A stretch of 64,000 nt of DNA from Muribaculaceae bacterium. Its GTDB lineage: Bacteria; Bacteroidota; Bacteroidia; Bacteroidales; Muribaculaceae. This document shows, piece by piece, positions 13,434 through 27,432 of this stretch; positions within the stretch are counted from its first letter, which is position 1, and every line of letters begins with the position of its first letter. The position numbers and the translations under genes were made by a program. The notes below the pieces were generated by a model that worked only from the letters and a program-made list of their open reading frames with translations, was not told the DNA's origin and searched no databases. The stretch covers positions 150,710-214,709 of the forward strand of contig JAFRRT010000014.1 of the NCBI GenBank assembly GCA_017427945.1. Reading direction: 5' to 3'.

Positions 13434-14187
13434 ATGGATAAGGATTTGACGTTTATTGGGATTATTCCGGCGAGGTATGCCTCGACGAGGTTTCCTGGCA
13501 AGCCGCTGGCAATGCTGGGCGGCATGACGATGATTGAGCGGGTTTACCGCCAGGTGAGCAAGGCGCTCGACCATGTGGTGGTCGCCACCGACGATGACCG
13601 CATCATGCAGGCAGTGGAAGCCTTTGGAGGAAGGGCAGTGATGACGAGCACTGAGCACCGCAGCGGCACCGACCGCTGTCAGGAGGCATACATGAAGAAT
13701 GGCGGCAACGAGGACATCATCATCAACATCCAGGGCGACGAACCGTTTATTCAGCCCGATCAGCTGCAAGCCATCATGTCGTGCTTTGACGACGAGGACA
13801 CCGATATTGCCACACTGGTACGCCCATTCGACCCCAGCCGTCCATATAATGAACTGGAGAATCCCAACACGCCCAAGGTCGTGCTGGACAGCCAGATGCG
13901 CGCCCGCTATTTCTCACGCTCGGTCATCCCTTACATCCGTGGCCGCGAACGTGAAGAATGGCCTGCTGCTACACAGTATTACACACATGTGGGCATGTAC
14001 GCCTACCGTGCTGCCGTCTTGGCCGAAATCACACGCTTGCCACAGTCGCCGCTTGAATTGGCCGAGTCGTTGGAACAACTGCGCTGGCTTGAGAACGGCT
14101 ACACCATCAAGGCGGGCATCACAACCACGGCAACCATCGGCATCGATACCCCCGAAGACCTCGCCCGCGCCGAGGAATATTTGAAAA

Positions 14188-14195
<8 letters not shown>
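13434..14195 (+). CDS. kdsB: 3-deoxy-manno-octulosonate cytidylyltransferase (CMP-Kdo synthetase)
   Basis: Activates Kdo with CTP to CMP-Kdo for lipid A-core assembly in the cytoplasm. The 253 residues carry the family motifs IIPARYASTRFPGKPLA at the nucleotide-binding N-terminus, VVVATDDDRI, the substrate motif STEHRSGTDR, and NIQGDEPFIQPDQL. Length is normal. I take this as the housekeeping copy because it sits away from glycan genes and matches canonical KdsB closely; a second, divergent copy lies at 21987-22739 in a glycan operon. The last codons overlap a heptad repeat, and lacZ-like starts 12 bp later. Confidence 0.95.
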
Positions 14196-21296: not shown

Positions 21297-21869
21297 ATGA
21301 AGAAATTCTTAATGACTCTCATGGTGGCAGTTTTCGCTGTTGGCGCAATGTCTGCCCAGACCGCTAAGACCACCACACAACAGGTTGTTGTAGAGAAAAA
21401 ACACGAATGCAAAGACCACCAGGACGGCAAACCTTGCACCAAGCCCGCCGACCAGCAGTGCGATGACTGCAAGGCTAAGGCTGCCGAGATGAAGAAGCAC
21501 GAACGCAAAGAAGGCATGGGCAAGAAGTGTGACAAAGCCGAAGGCATGAAGCACGAGTGCAAAGAGGGCCAGGGCCACGACTGCAAGAAGGGCGAAGGCA
21601 TGAAGCACGAATGCAAAGAAGGCATGGGCAAGAAGTGTGACAAAGCCGAGGGCATGAAGCATGAATGCAAAGAGGGCAAGGGCCACGACTGCAAGAAAGC
21701 CGAAGGCATGAAGCATGAATGCAAGGAAGGCATGGACAAGAAGTGTGATAAAGCCGAGGCCATGAAAAAGCATGAGCAGTGCAAGGATCACAAGGATGGC
21801 CAGAAGTGCGACAAGCCCGCCGACCAGCAGTGCCCCGATTGCAAGGAGAAAGCTGCTAAAAAGAACTAA
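21297..21869 (+). CDS. Secreted Cys/His/Lys-rich tandem-repeat protein, candidate metal binder
   Basis: No named family recognised. Of 190 residues, 1-21 form a clear signal peptide (FAVGAMSAQ). The mature part is highly charged and holds 17 cysteines. Residues 67-156 are five tandem 18-residue repeats of the type KHECKEGMGKKCDKAEGM, alternating with a KHECKEGxGHDCKKxEGM form. Flanking modules at the two ends resemble each other: CKDHQDGKPCTKPADQQC at 38-55 and a matching CKDHKDGQKCDKPADQQC near the C-terminus. The regular Cys-x2-to-x8 and His spacing suggests metal binding or a disulfide-linked structure in the periplasm. That is inference. The gene is flanked by its own -7 box and a strong terminator, so it is a single-gene unit. 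Confidence 0.8.
   Translation: MKKFLMTLMVAVFAVGAMSAQTAKTTTQQVVVEKKHECKDHQDGKPCTKPADQQCDDCKAKAAEMKKHERKEGMGKKCDKAEGMKHECKEGQGHDCKKGEGMKHECKEGMGKKCDKAEGMKHECKEGKGHDCKKAEGMKHECKEGMDKKCDKAEAMKKHEQCKDHKDGQKCDKPADQQCPDCKEKAAKKN
21495..21764 (+). repeat. Five in-frame 54-bp tandem repeats
   Basis: Codons 67-156 of the Cys/His-rich gene form five units of exactly 54 bp. Units 1, 3 and 5 are of one type and 2 and 4 of another, giving a 108-bp higher-order period. The third-position differences show they are not a recent array artefact. Confidence 0.85.
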
Positions 21870-21905
21870 AGTTTCTCAGAGACCGCAAAGGTTATAACAA
21901 GACAA

Positions 21906-21950
21906 GAATATCCCCGATTTCAGTGTAAATCGGGGATATTCTTTTTATTC
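21906..21950. terminator. Bidirectional terminator between the repeat-protein gene and the glycan operon
   Basis: Perfect 15-bp stem GAATATCCCCGATTT (21906-21920) and its complement (21927-21941) with a 6-nt loop, then TTTTTATT on the plus strand. It ends both the plus-strand repeat-protein gene and, from the other side, the operon ending at 21987. Confidence 0.85.
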
Positions 21951-21986: not shown

Positions 21987-22739
21987 TTAGTCGAGGTGGT
22001 TGTCTTGCATGTACTGGATAACGCGCTGCAGGTCGTTAGGAGTATCAACGGCAATGGTCTCGCTGTCCACCTCAATGTAATGGACATGGTAACCATTCTC
22101 GATGAAGCGCAAAATCTCGATGTCCTCAACCGACTCAACCTTGGCTTTGCCATACTTCTTGCCGTAGTCACAATAGAACTTGAGTGCCTCGGGCCTAAAG
22201 CCATAGACACACACCTGCTTGTAGTACTTCACGTTGATATTTCCTTTGGGGAACGGGGCCGCCGAACGAGTCAAGAACACACCGCGTCCGTCACCCGAAG
22301 CGATGACCTTAGGAACAGTGAAGTTAATCAGGTCAACAGGGTCGTGAATCTCGGTCATCAGGTTGGTAACCATAATGGGCGTATCGGGATTCTCAAGATA
22401 AGGAACTATCGCTGCACGAATCGTCTCAGGCTCAATGAGCGGCTCATCGCCCTGAATGTTGACATACAGGTCGGCGGGAATCTTCTCGGCAACTTCACCT
22501 ATGCGGTCAGTTCCCGTGCGATGGGACGTCGATGTCATGACCACGTTGATGCCACGTTCCTGACAGGCGTTAAAGATGCGGGAGTCATCGGTCGCCACAT
22601 ACACTTCAGTAAATTCGGCCACTTTCTTTGCCTGAAGATAGACGCGTTCTATCATCAGTTTGCCACAAATCTCGGCTAACGGCTTGCCCTCAAACCTTGA
22701 GGACTGATAACGTGCTGGAATAACGGCTATGATTTTCAT
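21987..22739 (-). CDS. KdsB-like CMP-sugar-acid cytidylyltransferase (second copy)
   Basis: Cytidylyltransferase of 250 residues with the CMP-Kdo synthetase motifs IPARYQSSRFEGKPLA, VYVATDDSRI, TSTSHRTGTDR and VNIQGDEPLIEPETI. It therefore probably activates Kdo or a related 2-keto-3-deoxy acid with CTP. It differs noticeably from the other copy at 13434-14195 and is the last gene of a five-gene glycan operon, 12 bp after an aldolase that could make a keto-deoxy acid. I infer that it activates the product of that aldolase. The exact acid is unknown, so no symbol is given. Confidence 0.88.
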   Translation of the reverse strand: MKIIAVIPARYQSSRFEGKPLAEICGKLMIERVYLQAKKVAEFTEVYVATDDSRIFNACQERGINVVMTSTSHRTGTDRIGEVAEKIPADLYVNIQGDEPLIEPETIRAAIVPYLENPDTPIMVTNLMTEIHDPVDLINFTVPKVIASGDGRGVFLTRSAAPFPKGNINVKYYKQVCVYGFRPEALKFYCDYGKKYGKAKVESVEDIEILRFIENGYHVHYIEVDSETIAVDTPNDLQRVIQYMQDNHLD

Positions 22740-22751
22740 ATTGTAAAGGTC

Positions 22752-24290
22752 TTAAAGGTATTGATAAATGGATTTAACATGCAGACTGCGATAGATGCTC
22801 GGCGTGAGCGAAACCAACGGAATCGACGTGAACTTCTCGAACTGGCGGAAGAGTGTGCGGTTCTCGCTGCTCAGCTCCATCTCTTTGTCTGAGAGCACCT
22901 GGCCACGATAGCCGTCATATCCTACAACGAAGACATCGGTCGGGGACATCTCGATGGCCGTCTGCAACGCCACGGTGGTGCAGGAGTCGACATAATCGTC
23001 AGTAAAGCTGATTTTTTCCAGCTCATAAGTATCCTTGGTGGCATAGGAAGGCACCTCGGTTCCCATTGCCCTGGGATAGGGAGATAACACGCAAACCCCC
23101 TTGAACTCACCTGCAGGCATCACAGTTTCCATGCGTCTGGCCTCGTTACCCACAAGAACATAGTACTTGTCGTTCTTCACGTCCTTGAACCGGGCGGCAT
23201 GACGTGCGGTGGCAAACACAACAGCCATATTGGGATGCATTTCGGTAAACTCCTTGATGGCCCTAACATGCTCGGCGGCACTCTCACCGCCACCCACAAT
23301 GAGCACCTCGTCATAATGGGCTGTCGGCAAAATGCCGAAATGGGCATTATCGGCAATGTGGTTGCGCTTGTTGTCCACGGCCCTGACAATGCTATTGAAG
23401 CTGTAGGCCCTGTTGGTACACCACGCCATCACCTCTTTTTGCGGGATGGAATTTGCTCCCGAAATCATATAGGGCAAAGTGGTACCCCAACCATGCTGAC
23501 GCAGCAACGGCATATAGGCGGTGATCGCATCGCCCAGCACATTGAAGTCAACCTCAAGCCCCTGCCGGTTCAGGCAAGTGAGCAGCAGCTCGATATTGAG
23601 GTTTCCGGCGCCACGTCCCATACCAAGTATTGTTCCGTCCACCGACTTAACGCCGCACTTAATGGCAGTAAGCGTGTTGATGAGCGCCATCTGCAGGTTG
23701 TTGTGACCATGGAAGCCCAATGGACAATCGGTAATCTCCTGAATCGCCGAAATGGTGCTGGCGACATCCTCAGGCATCATGCTACCAAAAGAATCCACCA
23801 TATTGAAAATCGTCACCACATCTTTCAACTGCGCGAATTTCGGTAGCAGTCCTTCGTACTCTCCCCACTTGGACATATACATCAAGTTAAAGCCCACCTC
23901 AAAGCCAGCCTCCTTGATATGTTTTGCCAAGTTGATGGCGCGGTCTATGTTCTTCGGGTCAACAGCAATCCTGATCATGTCAACCACGCCCTCAATGGGG
24001 GCCACCAAATACGGCAGGTCCTCGACTCGAGAGCTCTTCTCGTTGATCATCACCGCAATCTTCTTGTCGCATCGCTCACGTATTCTTCTGAGCGACGACA
24101 CGGGACAATAGCCATACTCTCCCATGTAAGTCTTATCAGGGTTATTGCGATAGCCCACCTCAATGTAATCTATGGGCAAAGTATTCACCGCATCCAGGTA
24201 GGTCCCCACCACATCAGGGGCAAAGTCCCAGTCGGTGTAGTACCCGCCGTCACGCAGTGTACAATCGAGAATTTGAAATTTACGTTCCAT
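22752..24290 (-). CDS. HMGL/DmpG-like metal-dependent aldolase with extra C-terminal domain
   Basis: Two-part 512-residue protein. Residues about 5-290 form an HMG-CoA-lyase-like TIM barrel. DCTLRDGG at 9-16 supplies the catalytic Arg13 and metal-binding Asp14, and FHGHN at 193-197 gives the two metal-binding histidines 194 and 196. GMGRGAGNLNIE at 223-234 is the typical loop. Related enzymes cleave or form 4-hydroxy-2-oxo acids from pyruvate and an aldehyde. Residues about 328-512 are a separate domain opening with VLIVGGGESAAEHVRAI, Rossmann-like and faintly like the MptE-like protein upstream. It overlaps the preceding gene by 11 bp and precedes the cytidylyltransferase by 12 bp. I infer it builds a 2-keto-3-deoxy (ulosonic) acid for CMP activation. 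Confidence 0.82.
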   Translation of the reverse strand: MERKFQILDCTLRDGGYYTDWDFAPDVVGTYLDAVNTLPIDYIEVGYRNNPDKTYMGEYGYCPVSSLRRIRERCDKKIAVMINEKSSRVEDLPYLVAPIEGVVDMIRIAVDPKNIDRAINLAKHIKEAGFEVGFNLMYMSKWGEYEGLLPKFAQLKDVVTIFNMVDSFGSMMPEDVASTISAIQEITDCPLGFHGHNNLQMALINTLTAIKCGVKSVDGTILGMGRGAGNLNIELLLTCLNRQGLEVDFNVLGDAITAYMPLLRQHGWGTTLPYMISGANSIPQKEVMAWCTNRAYSFNSIVRAVDNKRNHIADNAHFGILPTAHYDEVLIVGGGESAAEHVRAIKEFTEMHPNMAVVFATARHAARFKDVKNDKYYVLVGNEARRMETVMPAGEFKGVCVLSPYPRAMGTEVPSYATKDTYELEKISFTDDYVDSCTTVALQTAIEMSPTDVFVVGYDGYRGQVLSDKEMELSSENRTLFRQFEKFTSIPLVSLTPSIYRSLHVKSIYQYL

Positions 24291-25428
24291 GAAGTATTAA
24301 CTGTTTTGTTTTAGAAGCAAAAAATAACGCCCTATACTGGATAGCGCTTTTTAAATATTTTGGATATAACGAAGTACGTTTAATTGATTTAACCAACCCA
24401 TGTTGGGGATAGAGTGACAAGAACCTATCACGACCCGGGTGGCGACTACAGGAACCATTGAGCTGACCATTCTTCTTGAGTGCCATTTCAAGTGGCCGTT
24501 CCACATATCGAATACTGTTTCCACAATCCTTGAGGAAACGTTCTCCCTTAGCAGTGTTACACAACACAACCGATATAAAGCGATGGTTGGGCATCTCGGC
24601 AGTTCTTTCCAACCCCCAGAAATCCCCTACGGTCAAATCCCCGTAACGCTGAGTCGAGGCATAGGGGCACTGATAACAGTTCTCTCTGCTTATCAATCCC
24701 TTGAGATAGGCCGTATAAAAAATATCCACCAATTTGTATTTCCGATAGAGAACATCCTCGCCAAGAGAAGCCACCATCGACATACCGTTTTTCCCTCGGA
24801 AAACTACATTATCGTAATCGTCGATTCCCTTTCCTTGCAGGTATTCATTCAGATAAGTTATGGGAGCCACACCATGACAAACCAAATCCACCGCCAGTAA
24901 ATTTTCATAATCCTTTTGTAAATACTGCCGAAGACCGTGAATCTGACAAGGTGTACCGGTAAACATCACCATCACTCCCTCATCCAGTTTTTGCTTGACT
25001 TCAGTATAAACATCACCAGCAAACGCATGTACATAGCGGCTTCCCTGGCATTTGAGATATTCATTGACTGACGTAGCACCCGTGAATACCAATTGCTTCT
25101 CGTGTAGCTTCACACCGAATGCCGTCCCACCATTCCTGATGATGTGACAAGCCAAAGTTGTGACCACACCAGCTGAAGCTGCATTCTCAATTAATTGTTT
25201 ATCGGTCGACCAAGCAGCGAAGCATTTCTGGACACTATTCGAAGAGATAACATTTTGCGTCAGAGCAGGGCAGACCATTCGACACAAGCCGCACTCCACA
25301 CAAGCGTTAGCGTCTATCACAGGATAAAGCGCACCACTTTCATCACTGCGAAATTGAATCGCATGATGCGGACAGACACTGTAGCAAGTACAGCAACCTG
25401 TACATTTATTATGGTCGCATAGCTCCAT
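24280..25428 (-). CDS. Coenzyme F420 hydrogenase/dehydrogenase beta-subunit-like Fe-S flavoprotein
   Basis: Redox protein of 382 residues. Two [4Fe-4S] ferredoxin motifs lie at the N-terminus (CTGCCTCYSVCP, Cys 9/12/15/19, and CVECGLCRMVCP, Cys 43/46/49/53). FrhB-like N- and C-terminal domains follow, with TGTPCQIHGLRQYL and the extra cysteines in CYQCPYASTQRYGDLTVGDF. Homologues in polysaccharide clusters of anaerobes usually neighbour a pyruvyl transferase-family gene, as here; these organisms lack F420 synthesis, so FAD or FMN is the likely cofactor. It overlaps the upstream gene by 20 bp. A reductive step on a sugar or sugar acid is inferred. Confidence 0.88.
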   Translation of the reverse strand: MELCDHNKCTGCCTCYSVCPHHAIQFRSDESGALYPVIDANACVECGLCRMVCPALTQNVISSNSVQKCFAAWSTDKQLIENAASAGVVTTLACHIIRNGGTAFGVKLHEKQLVFTGATSVNEYLKCQGSRYVHAFAGDVYTEVKQKLDEGVMVMFTGTPCQIHGLRQYLQKDYENLLAVDLVCHGVAPITYLNEYLQGKGIDDYDNVVFRGKNGMSMVASLGEDVLYRKYKLVDIFYTAYLKGLISRENCYQCPYASTQRYGDLTVGDFWGLERTAEMPNHRFISVVLCNTAKGERFLKDCGNSIRYVERPLEMALKKNGQLNGSCSRHPGRDRFLSLYPQHGLVKSIKRTSLYPKYLKSAIQYRALFFASKTKQLILHGT

Positions 25429-26536
25429 CTAAAAAGGCCTTGGAAAATTTGATCATTGGAGACAACTTCGACTCAACGGCGGTCCAGTCTATCTCTTTAC
25501 CCATCGACTCAGGATCACCCTCACGAAATACAATTCTATCAGCGAGTCCAAGTGTATCCATCAGGCTATAGATGCGCGATGCTGTTCCCTGTTCCGGTGT
25601 TCCATGAACAAAAACTTGGAAACTCTTTTTCAGAATGATAGATAACGCGGAACCATGGAATGAGTTGGTAAAAACATATTTTGCTCCGCCAAGTAAAGAG
25701 ATAAACTCTGCAGGGCCAGCATCATATCGCTTGATGTTGGGATATAACCATTCACGTAGATTCTTGTCTACCACTACAACAGGAAGTTTATACCTCTTGG
25801 ATACAGATTTGACATAATCTCTCATTTCAGAAGAGCCGCCATGAACTGAATAGAAAAAAATGTAGGGTTTTTTGATTTTCTTGTCATCCCTCATCACTTT
25901 TTGCCATTGCTCACTTGACAACAAGAAAACCGGATCCATAACCTGTACGGTTTCTTTCCCACTTATCGATGAAATAACATCGACTGCATTCTGTTCCCGG
26001 ACAGACAACGCAGAAAAATCTGATAACTCTTCATGGAACTTAGAAACGAGATCAGGATGAACAGATGACATTCCCATACTGGCGGCATATGATAATCTGA
26101 CACCCTTGTCTTTTGCAAAAGCAAGGAGAAACGCGTCATCATAATTTTTGCAGAAAGTGTTCCAGATTTGATCACTGCCACAAATGTAGTAATCATAGTC
26201 CAAATCGGCTTTGGCTAAGTCAGCATTGCTATAATACACGTCCTTGGACAACCGTATATTATCATTGATAAAACCTTTAACCCTCTCATTTCGACATTTA
26301 AGTTTCCTCAAGTGAATTAAAGTATCAATATTTCTAATTATATTCATCGGATGTTTCATTGGGCGCATAAAGTATTTATAGCTCATTGCAACACGATATG
26401 TTCTGAAATCAATTGTCTCTGCATCAAAACCTAACGCATTCAAATAATAATTCAATGCATAAGCCTGCAAAACCGCACCATAATTATTTATCATGTGAAT
26501 CGTGACGATTCCTACCCGTTTCTTCTTGTTTTCCAT
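25409..26536 (-). CDS. Polysaccharide pyruvyl transferase family protein
   Basis: Protein of 375 residues in the PF04230 family, which adds pyruvate ketals to sugars from phosphoenolpyruvate. The N-terminal VTIHMINNYGAVLQAYAL and the motif ICGSDQIWN (about 118-126) are diagnostic, as is TNSFHGSALSIIL near the C-terminus. It is the second gene of the five-gene operon: the MptE-like gene ends 13 bp upstream, and the Fe-S flavoprotein starts inside its last codons. The paired occurrence with an F420-dehydrogenase-beta-like protein is common in anaerobe exopolysaccharide loci. Its acceptor sugar is unknown, and a glycosyltransferase role is possible because the family fold is GT-like. Confidence 0.9.
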   Translation of the reverse strand: MENKKKRVGIVTIHMINNYGAVLQAYALNYYLNALGFDAETIDFRTYRVAMSYKYFMRPMKHPMNIIRNIDTLIHLRKLKCRNERVKGFINDNIRLSKDVYYSNADLAKADLDYDYYICGSDQIWNTFCKNYDDAFLLAFAKDKGVRLSYAASMGMSSVHPDLVSKFHEELSDFSALSVREQNAVDVISSISGKETVQVMDPVFLLSSEQWQKVMRDDKKIKKPYIFFYSVHGGSSEMRDYVKSVSKRYKLPVVVVDKNLREWLYPNIKRYDAGPAEFISLLGGAKYVFTNSFHGSALSIILKKSFQVFVHGTPEQGTASRIYSLMDTLGLADRIVFREGDPESMGKEIDWTAVESKLSPMIKFSKAFLDGAMRP

Positions 26537-26549
26537 TGCTCAAAAAAAA

Positions 26550-27308
26550 TTATTTACGTAAGACCTCGTCAAGGTTGACACGTTCAAAGGCCTCGAGCTT
26601 TCCGCCACGCGTGGCATTGTAAACCGTGAAGCCCTCATGTGCATCGGCAAACTTCCTTGCCGTCATGTAGGCCATCGTGCTCTCGACTATGCGAGGCAGG
26701 TTCAAGCCCTTATTGCTCGCCTTAGAACCCTCAAAATAGTCCTTGACATCATCTTTCATGACAGGAACGCCTTTCTCGTTCAGGCTGATTGAGTAGTTGT
26801 GGTCAATACCCAAAAGATAGACCTCGCTGAAACCCATGTAGTAAGCCAACTGAATCGCGCCATAGGTCACGGTGAAACCCTGTCCCATATATCGGTGAAT
26901 GCGGGTACTGAAATCGGCGTCACCAGGATAGAAATCTTTGTGGCGCAGGACGAAATAGGAGATTCTGTCGTTATCGCCAAAATTTGGTTTGGTGTCAATA
27001 GGCAGGAAAATGCGGCGGCATTCAACCGTTTTGATATCCTCCTGGAATTTATCTATCAACTTAAAATCCTGATTGACGTAATAGGTCGGCCTCCAGGTAG
27101 TCTTCGGGAATATCTCAAAGATACGGTTGGAGCCAAAGGTTATCTCGCCTTTCAGGTTCTCAAGGTCTTCAATGGTCAAACTGGGGCCCGTCCCGATAAC
27201 GAAACAACGCTTCCCTTGATGTATTCCCTTGAACTGTTTCAATTCATTGCAGAGGGAATAATTCTGATAATATTGTTTGAGAGAGAAAAAGTATTCTTTC
27301 TTACCCAT
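26550..27308 (-). CDS. MptE-like (DUF115/Maf-type) protein, putative glycosyltransferase
   Basis: Protein of 252 residues opening the glycan operon. The key motif CFVIGTGPSLTIEDLENL (about 35-52) is the PF01973 signature, shared with the core of flagellin-modifying Maf proteins that transfer pseudaminic or legionaminic acid. Further matches are GSNRIFEIFP, GAIQLAYYMGFSEVYLLGID and, near the C-terminus, FTVYNATRGGKLEAFERV, all usual in this family. In the context of a CMP-sugar-acid synthetase I infer transfer of that acid onto a glycan or protein. It is the first gene after the promoter at 27401-27432, with an 86-nt leader. Confidence 0.82.
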   Translation of the reverse strand: MGKKEYFFSLKQYYQNYSLCNELKQFKGIHQGKRCFVIGTGPSLTIEDLENLKGEITFGSNRIFEIFPKTTWRPTYYVNQDFKLIDKFQEDIKTVECRRIFLPIDTKPNFGDNDRISYFVLRHKDFYPGDADFSTRIHRYMGQGFTVTYGAIQLAYYMGFSEVYLLGIDHNYSISLNEKGVPVMKDDVKDYFEGSKASNKGLNLPRIVESTMAYMTARKFADAHEGFTVYNATRGGKLEAFERVNLDEVLRK

Positions 27309-27400: not shown

Positions 27401-27432
27401 CAAAATTAGTATTAATCCATGAAATGGCCAAA
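27401..27432 (-). promoter_or_regulatory. Promoter of the glycan (ulosonic-acid-like) operon
   Basis: Minus strand TTTG (27432-27429), 20 bp, TAATTTTG (27408-27401). Full consensus. It lies in the 334-bp gene-free stretch 27309-27642, which otherwise contains only the promoter of the next plus-strand gene. Confidence 0.75.

Follow-up and report, generated by a model that had tools for sequence, protein, structure and literature searches.

A two-domain HMGL-type aldolase linked to CMP-transferases in a Muribaculaceae operon and other bacteria points to a probable pyruvate-based route to an activated sugar acid

Cytidine monophosphate (CMP)-activated ulosonic acids are key sugars of bacterial surfaces, and the textbook routes to them start from phosphoenolpyruvate (PEP). 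The pathway of 3-deoxy-manno-octulosonate (Kdo) runs through KdsA, KdsC and KdsB and then through transferases of the WaaA/KpsC type, and the pathways of sialic, pseudaminic and legionaminic acid use NeuB, NeuA and Maf/Cst transferases. Here we analyse an operon at positions 21987-27308 of a 64,000-nucleotide stretch of contig JAFRRT010000014.1 from a Muribaculaceae bacterium, hereafter the window. We consider it quite probable that the products of its core genes build a 2-keto-3-deoxy sugar acid from pyruvate, activate it with CMP and transfer it, whereby we infer every reaction, the sugar and the acceptor. With the Kdo pathway the operon would share the 2-keto-3-deoxy acid, and it shares KdsB-type CMP activation and, in 22 of 48 related loci, a HAD phosphatase gene nearby; it differs in having a pyruvate-aldolase-type barrel for the PEP synthase and a KdsB-like enzyme with other residues in the sugar-binding half. 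The nonulosonic acid pathways are echoed by a NeuA-like partner in many relatives, by the Maf-like gene and by a Maf/CstII-like domain on the aldolase, but here the aldolase is of the metal type and NeuB occurs in 1 of the 48 loci. In laboratory synthesis of CMP-sialic acid an aldolase and pyruvate are combined with CMP-sialic acid synthetase (excerpt of PMC7729866), thus likewise a pyruvate aldolase followed by CMP activation. There the enzymes serve laboratory use, whereas the aldolase gene described here is of the metal type and sits in biosynthetic clusters; the synthesis is a precedent as far as the chemistry is concerned, but not for a pathway in nature.

The operon lies on the minus strand and is tightly packed, as the initial annotation had claimed (gaps or overlaps of at most 20 base pairs, bp). 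From first to last it encodes a single-domain Maf-like protein (MptE-like/PF01973, 252 amino acids; 26550-27308), a polysaccharide pyruvyl transferase family protein (375 amino acids; 25409-26536), a FrhB/FdhB-type Fe-S flavoprotein-like protein (382 amino acids; 24280-25428), the two-domain aldolase (512 amino acids; 22752-24290) and a KdsB-like CMP-transferase (250 amino acids; 21987-22739). The first two genes are 13 bp apart and the last two 12 bp, whereas the third overlaps the second by 20 bp and the fourth by 11 bp. All five products exceed curated Pfam cut-offs: MptE-like with 51.8 bits (cut-off 34.6), PS_pyruv_trans with 115.4 (25.3), FrhB_FdhB_N/C (FrhB_FdhB_C 75.3 bits) together with 4Fe-4S, HMGL-like with 92.6 (29) and CTP_transf_3 with 153.5 (22.6). 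The families named earlier are thereby confirmed, except that the aldolase is not a member of DmpG (see below). The five-gene order itself recurs in two of 34 loci from other genomes, L001 (with one extra gene) and L002. Since homologues of FrhB and the pyruvyl transferase are found only in these two among L001-L034, we rejected a five-gene unit; in L003-L008 the unit consists of Maf-like protein, aldolase and CMP-transferase. The conserved core is thus the Maf-like protein, the two-domain HMGL-type aldolase and the KdsB-like CMP-transferase, and the pyruvyl transferase/FrhB pair is an optional insert, which may decorate the product. A PDB sequence search with the pyruvyl transferase gave no match.

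The link between aldolase and CMP-transferase was followed through 48 two-domain loci, namely 34 from a scan with one genome per species, a Leisingera plasmid, twelve from further searches and the window; L106-L112 duplicate L004, L003, L005, L001, L006, L008 and L017 and were left out of the counts. A CMP-transferase gene lies within four genes of the aldolase in 45 of the 48 (44 by hidden Markov model, HMM, and L126 by reading). The misses are L032 and L052, where none or one gene is left downstream, and L034, where a thiamine pyrophosphate (TPP) enzyme is next. Homologues counted as single-domain have such a neighbour in 2 of 20 cases, a set that includes L083, cut by the contig end, and L084, an open reading frame (ORF) of 681 amino acids in which only the barrel matched (Fisher p 9e-11 for 44/48 versus 2/20). 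Within two genes a CMP-transferase accompanies 42 of 48 aldolases compared to 137 of 544 other genes in 47 loci, the latter figure being inflated as the loci are centred on the pair. HAD phosphatase genes follow the same pattern, with 22 of 48 two-domain loci and 0 of 20 single-domain loci within five genes; the operon in the window has none. The CMP-transferase HMMs were built from neighbours in L001-L034 plus the L073 gene, and Pfam CTP_transf_3 was confirmed in 10/10 candidates given outside the window as well as in the L075 gene. The gene caller hides some overlapping genes, and the HAD gene of L028 and the NeuA-like gene of L126 were read by eye. By record titles, many of them contigs of metagenome-assembled genomes (MAGs), the two-domain aldolase occurs in at least Bacteroidota, Cyanobacteria, Proteobacteria, Patescibacteria, Nitrospirota and Bacillota. 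Its neighbours include genes for CMP-transferases, phosphatases, polysaccharide export and glycosyltransferases. HpcH/HpaI, epimerase and TPP neighbours vary by clade, some clades adding an HpcH/HpaI aldolase or an epimerase. A gene for a second aldolase of the HpcH/HpaI type directly follows the two-domain aldolase in L022, L072, L073, L074 and L193.

After the linkage pattern had been seen, cyanobacteria were searched as a second test set. A match to the aldolase family, with several subfamilies mixed, was present in 123 of 386 genomes (E <= 1e-40), and 40 regions out of these 123 were taken, namely 29 from the head of the list, which carry two-domain genes, and 11 that carry short genes. 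Of the 30 two-domain genes, 25 had a CMP-transferase at a distance of at most two genes, in 24 cases directly adjacent, compared to 0 of the 11 single-domain genes. Hence the CMP-transferase accompanies the presence of the second domain of the aldolase. The exceptions are L212 and a single look-alike group, L202-L205, with HAD, HpcH/HpaI, TPP and GT2 neighbours in L203. L202-L205 and L034, two-domain loci without CMP-transferase (with a TPP neighbour in L034 and L203), perhaps represent a further sugar-acid pathway. The aldolase family, including single-domain forms, is very common in small-genome cyanobacteria.

In farther relatives the KdsB-like partner gives way to a NeuA-like one, which is the nearest partner in 17 of 25 linked cyanobacterial genes and in 27 of 45 other linked loci (L073 by Pfam only). 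On a tree of 55 aldolases, which covers neither L032 and L052, both at contig ends, nor 11 of the 20 single-domain rows, the partner family changed at least 8 times by a quick tree and 9 times by a careful one. Sister pairs with unlike partners were supported (bootstrap/SH-aLRT) for L073/L076 (100/99), L028/L029 (100/100), L015/L018 (99/97) and L040/L126 (98/90); the L073 enzyme is CTP_transf_3 by Pfam, was missed by both profiles and was scored NeuA-like, its near relative L072 being NeuA-like by profile. According to an excerpt of PMC2901514, KdsB-type and NeuA-type CMP-transferases share about 20% identity. That two such distant families replace each other at the side of one aldolase suggests that what is required next to it is CMP activation.

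Concerning the aldolase itself, residues 1 to about 310 form a barrel with the fold and the R-D and HxH motifs of the DRE-TIM/HMGL-type metal aldolase superfamily. It is the only HMGL-like protein found in its genome. With the 4-hydroxy-2-oxovalerate aldolase DmpG/BphI it shares the TIM barrel, the R-D motif and HxH, but it carries a C-terminal Maf-like domain, and no dehydrogenase, such as the acylating aldehyde dehydrogenase that partners DmpG, is among the five genes of the operon. We rejected membership in DmpG because the protein scores 106.2 bits against the TIGR03217 cut-off of 286 and because Tyr17, present in 19/19 rows, replaces the catalytic His that follows R-D-G-x in DmpG (His in 4lrs by alignment). 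Residues ~317-512 are predicted to adopt a Maf/CstII-like (Maf/GT42-like) fold. As this is the fold of CMP-ulosonate transferases, the domain probably binds a CMP-sugar, and would then act as an additional transferase or serve feedback or assembly. With regard to the catalytic residues of GT42, its alignment holds no invariant His. The putative aldolase BVU_2661 (PDB 3dxi) is known by a structural-genomics title that gives no function, and the solved part comprises the N-terminal domain without the C-terminal one; no paper was found in the open-licence literature by locus tag or PDB id.

The operon CMP-transferase resembles KdsB and departs from housekeeping KdsB in the sugar-binding half. It scores 149.4 bits with TIGR00466 (KdsB), below the cut-off of 155.2, and passes the broader NCBIfam cut-offs PRK13368.1 and PRK05450.1-5 (3-deoxy-manno-octulosonate cytidylyltransferase). 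The operon enzyme has N126, Q175-x-C177 and I209 where housekeeping KdsB has T/S, H, G and Q. The His and Gln of KdsB (positions 175 and 209), which are presumably in contact with Kdo, are present in five PDB KdsB compared. By alignment, positions 126, 175, 177 and 209 fall in the C-terminal domain of KdsB, the domain that binds Kdo according to an excerpt of PMC3149649. N126 is found in 18/18 aldolase-linked KdsB-like enzymes from Bacteroidales, Patescibacteria, Chitinophaga, Sphingomonas, Prochlorococcus and Leisingera, and Q-x-C at 175-177 together with I209 in 17/18, the exception being L117. In contrast, the 27 next-best Bacteroidota KdsB have T/S126, H175 and G177 in 27/27 and Q209 in 26/27 (one P). 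The catalytic Gln, Asp and Asp of KdsB, named in the same excerpt of PMC2901514, are retained as Q96, D98 and D232, invariant in 10/10 aligned rows. When 395 Bacteroidota genomes were searched with a profile of the aldolase-linked KdsB-like enzymes, three matches reached 390-403 bits, each of them encoded next to the aldolase and belonging to the profile's own training set, and the next match came at 250. Of ten cyanobacterial KdsB-type genes, four carry the same residues (N, Q-x-C, I type) and six a third type. This third kind of KdsB-like neighbour, with residues of its own at the sugar positions, was observed in L117, L201, L208, L210 and L214-L216.

The genome of the window (2.77 Mb, 39 contigs, 96% complete) encodes two CTP_transf_3 proteins, both in the window: the operon enzyme and, on the plus strand outside the operon, a housekeeping KdsB (13434-14195) with 213.7 bits for TIGR00466. 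A KdsA above cut-off (377.7 bits) lies on another contig, NeuB was not detected in this genome, and none of the five operon genes encodes a PEP-dependent synthase (KdsA/NeuB). With kdsB and KdsA present elsewhere and the operon enzyme failing TIGR00466, the latter is a second, different CMP-transferase and not the sole functional CMP-Kdo synthetase, the finding that according to the initial annotation would have spoken against the proposal. Of 15 Bacteroidota genomes that carry the aldolase, 11 gave no NeuB; in another set of 15, NeuB matched in 6, two of them weakly. No KdsA above cut-off was found in 8 of 15 aldolase genomes, whose completeness was not given. Two of the 11 genomes without NeuB, G198 and G112, are single contigs (100% and 99% complete) that carry a NeuA-like partner beside the aldolase. 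In NeuB-less genomes the substrate of the NeuA-like enzyme must come from a source other than NeuB. Near the aldolase, a NeuB homologue was found in one of the 48 loci (L075) and in none of the 29 cyanobacterial regions in a scan with a single NeuB as query, which a divergent NeuB could escape. In L075 (8728-14680) the order is aldolase, NeuA-like, HAD, one unassigned gene, a second CTP_transf_3 gene and NeuB. Here two ulosonic-acid sets adjoin, each with its own CMP-transferase; shared use is another possible reading.

The Maf-like protein is probably the transferase for the CMP-activated acid. Among the 48 loci, 8 have a homologue immediately upstream of the aldolase gene and 15 have one within four genes. 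A PDB sequence search with the protein gave no match up to E 1. Maf glycosyltransferases transfer a CMP-activated nonulosonic acid to flagellin; the protein has 252 amino acids, compared to 632 residues in the Maf chain 5mu5. In the proposed pathway, the enolate of pyruvate on the metal of the barrel would attack a sugar aldehyde to give a 2-keto-3-deoxy acid. In many relatives the aldehyde would probably be phosphorylated, because they have a HAD phosphatase gene nearby. The acid would be dephosphorylated and then coupled to CMP by the adjoining KdsB-like (elsewhere NeuA-like) enzyme, and the Maf-like transferase would move it to a glycan or protein. This logic of pyruvate aldolase, CMP activation and Maf-type transfer was already proposed in the initial annotation, and the multi-phylum linkage, the partner swaps, the altered sugar-half residues and the predicted Maf/CstII-like fold argue for it.

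Other explanations have to be weighed. The aldolase might perform another DRE-TIM reaction, e.g. an acyl-CoA Claisen condensation or a cleavage, and supply a precursor, with activation of an ulosonic acid remaining the task of the CMP-transferase. The many acetyl-CoA condensing enzymes in the HMGL-like superfamily, the Tyr in place of the DmpG catalytic His and the HpcH/HpaI-type aldolase directly next in five loci are in favour of this, which we regard as rather unlikely. It is also unlikely, and somewhat more so, that the genome has in the KdsB-like enzyme a second CMP-Kdo synthetase, serving a glycan with Kdo, and that the aldolase modifies another sugar. The broader 3-deoxy-manno-octulosonate cytidylyltransferase cut-offs are passed and the genome has KdsA, but the TIGR00466 cut-off is missed, the four positions are unlike those of the 27 next-best Bacteroidota KdsB, NeuA-like enzymes repeatedly substitute beside the same aldolase, and 8 of 15 aldolase genomes showed no KdsA above cut-off. 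We rejected a second copy of the Kdo route on the differing sugar-half positions and the NeuA-like swaps.

Aldol reactions are reversible, and if the genes served salvage or catabolism, the aldolase would cleave scavenged ulosonic acids as NanA does with sialic acid; some nearest relatives are rumen MAGs by record titles, where host or diet glycans are a possible source. However, the neighbours are biosynthetic (CMP-transferase, phosphatase, polysaccharide export, glycosyltransferase) and the system is also present in Prochlorococcus and Leisingera, which makes salvage very unlikely. That the genes are chance neighbours in a horizontally shuffled island might be suspected from the rarity of the five-gene order, but it is hardly credible given the linkage counts and a pair of aldolase and CMP-transferase kept with differing flanks across several phyla. 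A pyruvate-built, CMP-activated acid is the reading we retain.

A full promoter and a terminator had also been claimed for the operon. Upstream of the first gene lies a promoter-like site of the Bacteroidetes type, TTTG-N-TANNTTTG (27401-27432, minus strand), and the window holds nine such sites versus 0.81 expected. A terminator-like hairpin with a stem of 17 pairs (21904-21943) stands between the converging genes at the end of the operon. The claim stands as far as this site and this hairpin are concerned, but a sigma-70 scan was weak (18 sites versus 11.0 ± 2.9 in the shuffled region) and terminator-like sites occur in the region at chance level (6 seen, 6.7 expected); we dropped both the scan and the number of terminator-like sites as evidence. 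The neighbouring plus-strand ORF at 21297-21869 is rich in Lys, Glu, Cys and His, contains tandem repeats (54/108-bp units, 21494-21766) and possibly binds metal. A phage search gave partial matches to two records.

Searches of the open-licence literature listed no paper whose title or opening lines of the abstract present an HMGL-type aldolase paired with CMP-transferases or a pathway of this kind. On a Leisingera plasmid the triad is annotated 'aldolase catalytic domain-containing protein', '3-deoxy-manno-octulosonate cytidylyltransferase' and 'HAD family hydrolase', names which, in this one annotated record, hide the pathway. We tentatively propose, at somewhat less than even chances, that CMP-activated ulosonic acids have a third route in nature, besides the PEP-dependent ones to Kdo and the nonulosonates, spread over several phyla, in which the aldolase half of a bifunctional protein would make the acid from pyruvate and its Maf/CstII-like half would bind or transfer the CMP-product, the sugar being neither Kdo nor a known sialic-type acid. 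If true, a class of surface sugars has been missed, made by a pyruvate-based route that differs from the textbook Kdo and sialic acid routes, has its own CMP-transferases and recurs in Bacteroidales and cyanobacteria.

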